64,000 nt of DNA. Source: Candidatus Poribacteria bacterium (lineage in GTDB: Bacteria; Poribacteria; WGA-4E; WGA-3G). The stretch is taken from contig VXMD01000083.1 of NCBI GenBank assembly GCA_009841255.1, forward strand, positions 124,001 to 188,000, given 5' to 3'. The notes below the pieces were generated by a model that was given only the letters and a program-made list of their open reading frames with translations, was not told where the DNA came from and did not search any database. This document shows, one piece after another, positions 9,316 to 12,302 of the stretch. A program made the position numbers and the translations under genes. Position 1 is the stretch's first letter. The number at the start of each line of letters is the position of its first letter.

Positions 9316-10377
9316 CTACAGTGGCAACGAAATCGGTGCGCCGATTTGCGAGGAACGATACGTCGCTTCCGCCAACGCAATGCCGTCTCTGCCGATGCGT
9401 CCGTGGGTTGTCGGTTCGGCTTCACCGGCGATACACTGGAGCCAATGGTCAATGCTCGTGCCTTTTGCAGCGATCCCCCAATACCGCTGCTGCCGCCGCT
9501 CCTCGGGCATGTTGCGGTAGGTATCATCATCTGGCACAGGTGCAGTGAATTCTTCCTCGTCTGCCATATCATGTGTTTTCCAACGGAGTCCATTCTGAAT
9601 CAACGTCGCGGAACCCTTGCTCGTGACGAGCCCGTTCCCGCTGTTCCGAATCTCAGCCGCCCAACTCTTCATCATCATACCGACACCGCCGTTCTTGAAA
9701 TGCACGGTCAGCACGGCATTGTTCTCTACGGCTTGGTCAGCGGGTGGGTAAGTGCCACCGAGCGGCACATGACTCGTGAATCCGTAGACAGTAGAAGCGG
9801 GACCGTAGAGCCACAGCCAGATATCGAGTTCGTGAATCGCTTGCTCCACCAGCATACCGCCCGATTCCGCCTTCACAAAGAGCCAGGGATGCCGTTCCGG
9901 TGAAAACCAACCGACCTGATTCGAATACGTCATCTGTAGTGTGCCGAGTGTGCCATCTTCCAACAACGATTTTAGTTTCATGTACCCTGGATTGAACCGC
10001 ATCATATAGGCAACCATCAGAAGAACACCCGCTTCTTCAGCAGCAGCGATCATTGCCTCACCTTCCGCGACGTTGCAACACATCGGTTTCTCCATCAAGA
10101 TGTGTTTGCCAGCAGTCGCAGCCGCCCGCGTGATTTCAAGGTGCGGACGCGGATGGACACACACATCCACGGCGTCTATATCCTGTCTGTCGAGGAGGGC
10201 GCGGTAGTCCGTGTAGGCATCTGCACCAAACTGGGCTGCCTGCTCGTTTGCGGATGCCTCGTTGATGTCAGCGATTGCGACGATGTCTGCGCGTCGCGTC
10301 GGTTCCTGGTAATAGGGAGCGTGGAGACTGCGGAAGATGCCGCCACATCCGATAATGCCGACTCTGATTCTGTCCAT
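9316..10377 (-). CDS. Gfo/Idh/MocA-family oxidoreductase
   Basis: 353 residues. The N-terminal Rossmann domain has the NAD(P)-binding GIIGCGGIF near residue 8 and DVCVHPRPHLEITRAAATAGKHILMEKPM, whose E-K-P is the family hallmark. The C-terminal alpha/beta domain contains the conserved GGMLVEQAIHELDIWLWL helix with the catalytic-type His. Members oxidise or epimerise sugars, inositols or related polyols with bound NAD(P); the substrate cannot be told. The ATG is preceded directly by an A/T-rich dozen bases and CCGCAAGG, the end of a dispersed repeat. It follows the selenoprotein gene on the same strand and may belong to the same catabolic cluster. Confidence 0.9.
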   Translation of the reverse strand: MDRIRVGIIGCGGIFRSLHAPYYQEPTRRADIVAIADINEASANEQAAQFGADAYTDYRALLDRQDIDAVDVCVHPRPHLEITRAAATAGKHILMEKPMCCNVAEGEAMIAAAEEAGVLLMVAYMMRFNPGYMKLKSLLEDGTLGTLQMTYSNQVGWFSPERHPWLFVKAESGGMLVEQAIHELDIWLWLYGPASTVYGFTSHVPLGGTYPPADQAVENNAVLTVHFKNGGVGMMMKSWAAEIRNSGNGLVTSKGSATLIQNGLRWKTHDMADEEEFTAPVPDDDTYRNMPEERRQQRYWGIAAKGTSIDHWLQCIAGEAEPTTHGRIGRDGIALAEATYRSSQIGAPISLPL

Positions 10378-10531: not shown

Positions 10532-11263
10532 CTATTGGCGTTGCCTACTGTTTTTAAGGATAGGCGGTGGTGTCTCGTCCGCCAAGAGCGCGAGTGCCTC
10601 AGCGATAATCGCGTGTTGCAATTCTGGGTTGTTCGGTTCTCCGAGCGGATGTCCAAATGGATATGGAACAAGTAAAGCACGCGGCGGTTTTACCTTCCGC
10701 GTCATACTTTCAACAAGCGTAATTGAAACCGTGGAGACTCCCGCCGCTTCAACAGCGCGTTGTATCAATCCCACGGATTGATTGCACATCGGTCAGACAG
10801 GGGTTAAGAAAGCAACGTCTACACCATCCGCTTTCAGTTTATGTGCGACCTCAGGTGCGGATTGGGTAATGAGCGGGCGCGGTTTTGTAATGGATCCCAT
10901 AAAACTGAAGTGCCTATGGTTTAGGGATCCGATTTTACCTTCGGCCGCCAACTCCTTGAATCTATCCAGCGGAAACGCAAGGTTCGCATCAGTTTCGAGA
11001 CCGCGTTCGTCGTAAGCCGCGCTCTTATGTCCGTTTATGAGTGCTTGTGTCTGAATGGAATTTGGAATCTCGCGGTAGGAACAATCTCCCCTCTCAAAGG
11101 GATCCTGCCCATCGAGGAAAAAACCGGCAGTTGTAATGAGAGCAATTCTACATTCATTCAACGGCACGCGCAGCGGTGTGTGAGGAGATGCTTTATAACG
11201 CAGACCACCGTAAAACTTCATAAAGAATCGAGAGAGAGGATCAAGTTTCCACACAGATGCCAT
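10532..11263 (-). CDS. GrdB-like selenoprotein (glycine/sarcosine/betaine reductase selenoprotein B family), Sec at codon 157
   Basis: Two abutting open frames (11263-10793 and 10789-10532) are one gene interrupted only by an in-frame TGA at 10793-10795. Reading through gives VAFLTPV-U-PMCNQSVGLIQ, a U-x-x-C motif at residues 157-160, where cysteine homologues of the family have C-x-x-C. The protein is 243 residues with family segments GGLRYKASPHTPLRVPL, AAYDERGLETDANLAFPLDR and RHFSFMGSITKP before the Sec, and TVSITL and PPRALLVPYPFGHPLG after it. A perfect hairpin 10 bases past the UGA is a good SECIS candidate. The start at 11263 has GAGGT 7 bases upstream. The 13-base gap from the oxidoreductase at 11277 suggests co-transcription. 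Family members are redox selenoenzymes; this one's substrate is unknown. Confidence 0.85.
10764..10795 (-). promoter_or_regulatory. Candidate bacterial SECIS element with the UGA(Sec) codon
   Basis: In the mRNA, UGA is followed by 10 bases and then AUCAAUCC-GUG-GGAUUGAU (stem 10764-10771 with 10775-10782), a perfect 8-bp stem with G first in the apical loop. The loop starts 18 bases after the UGA. Bacterial SECIS hairpins are typically placed at this distance inside the coding sequence and bind SelB. The whole hairpin is also protein-coding. Confidence 0.75.
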
Positions 11264-11276
11264 TACGGACCTCGAA

Positions 11277-12302
11277 TTAGCCGTTCGCGAAGATGAGTCG
11301 TTTCCTGTTCTCGCACGGGAGTTGGACGGTCTGTCCGGTAATGCCGCTTTCAATGGTAGCAAAGCCGATTTCGTTGACAGCGGTATAATCATCACGGGCG
11401 CAATCGGGTAGCAGTCCACCGTCTAAGTAATCAGTAATCTGTTTATAGGCGATATTGAAGGGTCCGGCGTTCTCAGGAAGACCGAGGGTCGCGTTATCAA
11501 CTAACTCGCCGCCTTTATGTACAGTCGTGCCGCTATAAAATCCTGCTTGAACGCTGCCTTCGCTGCCGAGAACATCAACGGAGAAGCCGCCCCGTGTTCC
11601 ATGGTTTCCAACATGGAAACCGATCACACCACTCTCAAATTGGATGGTCGATCCGACAATTGCGGGTTCAGGTTCGTAAGACTCCGGCACATCTCCACCC
11701 CCAGAAACGAATCCAGTCACCGAAATAGGATCATAACCAGCAAACTGGCAGATCATATCCGTCGTGTGGATAGCGAAGGAGAGCACACCACCCCCACAAT
11801 AGCCGATGACGGTTTGGACTTCACCGATGAGTCCGTCCTTGATAAGCGATTGGAGGCGGATGAGGTGAGGTCCCCAATGCCGTGTGTAGTCGACAACAAT
11901 AGGGATGCCTTTCGCGTCAGCACCCGCCGTCATTGCATCCACCTCTTCGAGGGAACATCCCGCGGGTTTTTCGAGGAAGATGGCTTTGATGTCCGCCTTC
12001 AAAACGTTTTGCATGACCTTAAAGTGATGCGGTCCGCGGACACAGACAGCAACGATATCCAAATCTTCACTTTCAAGCATCTGCGTATCAGTTTCGTAGT
12101 AGTTGATGGAATTGTCTGGGAAAGCAGGTCCCCACACCTGTTGAAACTCTGCTTGGCGTTCCTGGGACATGTCCGCGACAGCGACCAATTCGGTCGTCTC
12201 ACAAAAACGGATACCGCCTGTGTGGCAATAGGGATACGCGTCATCCGGCGTTGAATAACGGGAGGCGATATTGCCTAATCCGATGATACCGACACGATAC
12301 AT
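11277..12302 (-). CDS. Gfo/Idh/MocA-family oxidoreductase
   Basis: 341 residues. The nucleotide-binding loop is GIIGLGNIASRY at the N terminus. VAVCVRGPHHFKVMQNVLKADIKAIFLEKPAG carries the family E-K-P motif, and VDYTRHWGPHLIRLQSLIKDGLIGEV leads into the C-terminal domain with GGGVLSFAIHTTDMICQF. AAAGGAG precedes the ATG with good spacing. It is the first gene of a short minus-strand unit with the GrdB-like selenoprotein 13 bases downstream, so the two probably act on one substrate or its product. The sugar or polyol substrate cannot be inferred. Confidence 0.9.
   Translation of the reverse strand: MYRVGIIGLGNIASRYSTPDDAYPYCHTGGIRFCETTELVAVADMSQERQAEFQQVWGPAFPDNSINYYETDTQMLESEDLDIVAVCVRGPHHFKVMQNVLKADIKAIFLEKPAGCSLEEVDAMTAGADAKGIPIVVDYTRHWGPHLIRLQSLIKDGLIGEVQTVIGYCGGGVLSFAIHTTDMICQFAGYDPISVTGFVSGGGDVPESYEPEPAIVGSTIQFESGVIGFHVGNHGTRGGFSVDVLGSEGSVQAGFYSGTTVHKGGELVDNATLGLPENAGPFNIAYKQITDYLDGGLLPDCARDDYTAVNEIGFATIESGITGQTVQLPCENRKRLIFANG

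Follow-up and report, generated by a model that had tools for sequence, protein, structure and literature searches.

A predicted selenocysteine-containing, stand-alone relative of the D-proline reductase subunit PrdB in Candidatus Poribacteria

Introduction

A 64,000-nucleotide stretch of the genome of a sponge symbiont, Candidatus Poribacteria (assembly GCA_009841255.1, contig VXMD01000083.1), here called the window, carries on its minus strand a reading frame that is interrupted by a TGA. The locus raises two questions, namely whether this codon is read as selenocysteine (Sec) and, if so, to which kind of enzyme the joined frame belongs. An earlier note on this DNA had proposed a GrdB-like selenoprotein. 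We read the region 11263-10532, with a probability of about 0.9, as a genuine gene for a predicted Sec-containing protein that is a stand-alone relative of the D-proline reductase subunit PrdB.

The frame starts with an ATG at 11263, with a GAGG ribosome-binding-like motif immediately on its 5' side, runs through the TGA at 10795-10793 and ends with a TAG at 10534-10532. Joined in this way, it gives the 243 residues and the context LTPV-U-PMCNQS that the earlier note had described. The same note expected automatic gene calling to split the gene, and the standard list indeed holds two ORFs in its place, 11419-10793 and 10789-10532.

10532..11263, minus strand: stand-alone PrdB-like selenoprotein gene (predicted), 243 aa with one Sec; homologues occur phylum-wide with one TGA inside
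10793..10795, minus strand: in-frame UGA, predicted Sec 157, which opens the UxxC motif U157-P-M-C160

Relationship to PrdB and GrdB

The protein matches PF07355 above the gathering cut-off of 22 (35.2 bits, E 1.1e-8), and the match covers only the model's C-terminal region (222-345 of 347). The best NCBIfam model is PrdB (TIGR04483) with 157 bits, compared with 41-51 bits for the GrdH, GrdF and GrdB models. The label 'GrdB-like' is sound at the level of the superfamily (PF07355) and imprecise below it, where PrdB (157 bits) is nearer than GrdB (41 bits). The protein nevertheless lies outside the PrdB equivalog.

That the gene encodes the PrdB of a working D-proline reductase is highly unlikely. 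PrdB is the best family match, and clostridial PrdB is 37-38% identical, similar in length and carries Sec at the same place; however, the score of 157 bits remains below the equivalog cut-off of 300, which true PrdBs pass. The control PrdBs, from Terrisporobacter, Ligilactobacillus and Enterococcus (each adjoining prdA) and one from Peptoclostridium, reach 310-425 bits. They are 31-38% identical to the Poribacterial protein, display the motif AGUGTCHR (TAGUGTCHR versus TPVUPMCNQ) and group apart from it on their own branch, supported at 100/100. A search for PF09338 (PrdA/GrdE), positive in all three prd/grd plasmids that served as controls, found no match in 85 Poribacterial genomes, nor in 29 relative-bearing genomes from other phyla. 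Because the PrdB score falls below the cut-off and PF09338 was not found in these genomes, the protein is best described as a stand-alone PrdB relative, not as the PrdB of D-proline reductase.

A GrdB-type subunit of a glycine, sarcosine or betaine reductase would agree with the PF07355 match and with the UxxC motif, which is as in GrdB. This reading is nonetheless very remote, as the GrdB model (TIGR01917) scores 41 bits against a cut-off of 602 and far below the PrdB model, the 85 Poribacterial genomes yielded no GrdE (PF09338), and 243 residues compare with a model length of 431. PrdA and GrdE bind their substrate through a pyruvoyl group. Since these pyruvoyl partners were not found in the genomes searched, amine-cleaving chemistry is unlikely, and neither D-proline nor glycine is a probable target of cleavage by the Poribacterial protein.

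Conservation of the UGA codon

The stand-alone PrdB relative was compared with the 80 best relatives from a scan of GTDB genomes, which come from Poribacteria, Acidobacteriota, Latescibacterota, Chloroflexota and Actinomycetota. In all 80, across the five phyla, a TGA stands at the Sec codon within the UxxC motif. A homologue is found in 68 of the 85 Poribacterial genomes; nearly all full-length matches contain one internal TGA, which is present in every Poribacterial homologue with a readable site. A second TGA in the homologue of one genome (G061) was considered as a sign of decay and rejected, being apparently that homologue's own terminal stop. With dN at 0.06-0.18 versus dS at 0.47-1.44, and dN lower than dS on either side of the TGA, both halves of the gene are by this measure under purifying selection. 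Two alphaproteobacterial relatives (~30% identity) have Cys at the Sec position.

In another family of the same class, relatives (L055 4010-4621, L056 4001-4594, L057 3-560) carry the motif TPAUGxCHxS, intermediate between the Poribacterial PVUPxCNQ and the AGUGTCHR of PrdB. A distant relative (26% identity) is encoded on an unannotated Photobacterium plasmid (L158 4001-4573); it has TGA at the aligned position (STUGTC) and is possibly a selenoprotein as well.

The SECIS hairpin

Downstream of the UGA, the sequence AUCAAUCC-GUG-GGAUUGAU can form a hairpin that begins 10 nt past the codon and has G as its first loop base, as the earlier note had stated.

10764..10782, minus strand: SECIS hairpin, 8-bp stem, 3-nt loop GUG, UGA-to-loop distance 18 nt

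A published model of bacterial SECIS elements calls for a loop of 3-9 nt with G within its first two positions, a stem of 4-16 bp, a spacing of 16-37 nt and an energy limit of -7.5 kcal/mol (PMC13188914). The loop of 3 nt, the stem of 8 bp, the leading G and the spacing of 18 nt fall within these ranges, while the energy of the 19-nt hairpin alone is borderline, at -7.4 kcal/mol (z -2.9) slightly short of the published limit. Folded within 38 nt of context the value is -10.9 kcal/mol (z -1.5), and within 56 nt it is unexceptional (z -0.72). The single-sequence fold was accordingly rejected as proof of a SECIS element and counts as weak evidence, because its z-score in 56 nt of context is only -0.72. 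Across the whole window, 4 of 2240 TGAs on both strands precede a perfect Watson-Crick hairpin of 8 bp at SECIS-like spacing, and none of the window's other candidates of this kind has a redox motif like UxxC.

Comparison among 75 distinct relatives is more telling. Their stems form a mean of 7.57 of 8 pairs, versus 5.30 when synonymous codons are shuffled, and the observed pairing is reached by 3.5% of such resampled sequences at the median. The stem is fully paired in 50 of the 75, single stem pairs have undergone compensatory exchanges (U-A/C-G/G-C, A-U/G-U/G-C and U-A/A-U), and G occupies one of the first two loop positions in every one of the 75; since these sequences share kinship, neither pairings nor exchanges are counts of independent events. 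On this comparative evidence, the hairpin is retained beyond what protein coding demands. The retention of hairpin and TGA among relatives is a stronger argument than the fold of a single sequence. Whether Cys forms lose the hairpin is only weakly tested by the two Cys-containing relatives, because they are distant (~30% identity).

Selenocysteine machinery

All four genes that the earlier note had proposed to look for, selA, selB, selC and selD, are present in the same genome. SelB (353 bits) is encoded at C50:153489-155384 next to the gene for tRNA-Sec (78 bits), and the SelA match reaches 519 bits. SelD has an in-frame TGA of its own at a CAGUASK site (L069 1399-2442, minus strand; matched part G000:C31:125360-126283) and is likely to be a second selenoprotein of this genome. 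The Sec gene goes together with SelA, which occurs in 62 of the 68 Poribacterial genomes that have the gene and in 10 of the 17 that lack it (Fisher p 0.003). Three of the six SelA-less genomes with the Sec gene have SelB above the cut-off; the remaining three have a completeness of only 81-83%.

A tandem duplication of ~3.3 kb lies near selB (L065 3466-12446; G000:C50, around 153465-162445). It has produced a chimera that joins the SelB N-terminus in frame to the LepA C-terminus, and has left a signal-peptidase pair in two identical copies. Besides the chimera, the genome retains selB and lepA in intact form. The duplication may be either real or an artefact of assembly.

These parts suggest how UGA 157 would be decoded: SelB with Sec-tRNA would bind the hairpin just 3' of the codon, leading to insertion of Sec. 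The conserved parts lend this SelB- and hairpin-dependent decoding strong support, and the proposal that the gene encodes a genuine selenoprotein and carries a SECIS element is upheld by the TGA of the 80 relatives and the conserved hairpin. Near-cognate readthrough, or another amino acid at the UGA in place of the predicted Sec, is scarcely credible in a genome that has tRNA-Sec, SelB and a SECIS-like hairpin, given also that the alphaproteobacterial relatives have Cys there. A real stop or a sequencing or assembly error in a split or decayed gene, raised by the earlier note itself, would account for the two ORFs of standard gene calling and has a negligible probability, contradicted as it is by the TGA kept in 80 of 80 relatives from five phyla, by purifying selection on both halves, and by the conserved SECIS and full Sec machinery.

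Genomic context and proposed role

The Sec-containing PrdB relative is flanked by two genes of one oxidoreductase family.

11277..12302, minus strand: upstream Gfo/Idh/MocA-family oxidoreductase, 341 aa, PF01408 E 4e-15; ends 13 nt before the selenoprotein start
9316..10377, minus strand: downstream Gfo/Idh/MocA-family oxidoreductase, 353 aa, PF01408 E 1.3e-32

The earlier note had pointed to such a neighbour, and the arrangement recurs: among 51 Poribacterial loci, a Gfo/Idh/MocA gene lies upstream in 40, downstream in 42 and on both sides in 36. Co-transcription and a shared pathway, like the 'catabolic operon' previously suggested, are inferred. Conserved neighbour genes, Gfo included, were not found around the Acidobacteriota relatives, so the pathway link may be specific to the lineage. 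Against the NCBIfam inositol 2-dehydrogenase model the two neighbours score 127 and 57 bits (cut-off 355), and their PDB matches are varied sugar and inositol dehydrogenases. No substrate is assigned to them because the NCBIfam matches fall under the cut-offs.

An AlphaFold2 model of the selenoprotein (pLDDT 91.9) places U157 between a strand (150-154) and a helix (160-173). The junction of a strand with the start of a helix is a common site for a reactive selenol. Foldseek found nothing credible in the PDB for this model (best E 1.4e-3, TM 0.3), and a sequence search of the PDB returned nothing relevant. Lacking a credible match among solved structures, the model suggests no activity; the PrdB-like fold seems to be structurally unexplored, and a solved structure would be informative because the predicted fold matches none of those available.

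In the mature protein, a redox-active U-x-x-C would thus follow a beta strand and lead into a helix. Its most likely role would be that of a selenol/thiol oxidoreductase or a reductive enzyme acting on a small substrate, perhaps one handled jointly with the two NAD(P)-dependent Gfo/Idh/MocA neighbours. A redox role in a pathway shared with these neighbours is a tentative assignment, with the odds somewhat against it. The wider proposal comes close to an even chance: the PrdB-like Sec proteins that stand alone in Poribacteria, Acidobacteriota and other groups may be a selenoenzyme in their own right, one that catalyses a distinct, non-Stickland reaction and needs no pyruvoyl partner; in Poribacteria it would work with two sugar/cyclitol-type dehydrogenases and would partly explain the enrichment of selA and selB in sponge symbionts.

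Implications

Enrichment of selA and selB in sponge-symbiont genomes has been reported (PMC5649159), and this was the only paper found in a literature search for a link between Poribacteria and selenoproteins. The present gene offers a concrete target for that enrichment. The annotation of Poribacteria gains a selenoprotein whose gene standard calling splits. More broadly, for a clade of 'PrdB' relatives that is widespread, no PrdA half could be detected, and the label 'D-proline reductase' would therefore predict the wrong metabolism for its members.

Comparison with known systems

The protein class is not new, as PrdB/pfam07355 selenoproteins with UxxC have been reported from the sea. PrdB with UxxC is among the commonest selenoproteins both of the 2005 Sargasso Sea data, with 42 genes (PMC1088965), and of the 2008 GOS data, which contain it (pfam07355, UxxC) in 235 Sec and 110 Cys forms (PMC2398784). 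Compared by description, these marine proteins resemble the Poribacterial one in family label, in UxxC and in being mostly Sec forms; the passages that describe them mention neither the absence of PrdA nor neighbouring Gfo/Idh/MocA genes. What is added here is the lack of a detected partner and the Gfo-Sec-Gfo gene order.

The proteins of Roseomonas and Haematobacter annotated as 'glycine/sarcosine/betaine reductase selenoprotein B family protein' are ~30% identical to the Poribacterial protein, and the gene lists for the 5 kb around them likewise show neither PrdA nor GrdE, but they carry Cys in place of Sec, are ~300 aa long and fall on a separate branch. GrdB, GrdF and GrdH (PF07355) share the C-terminal homology and the UxxC motif, whereas the Poribacterial protein is ~190 residues shorter, has no GrdE partner and scores poorly against their models. 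Clostridial PrdB (TIGR04483) differs in its AGUGTCHR motif, where the Poribacterial protein has PVUPxCNQ, in its PrdA and prd operon, and in exceeding the equivalog cut-off; it resembles the Poribacterial protein in its ~240 aa and its Sec within UxxC, at 37-38% identity.
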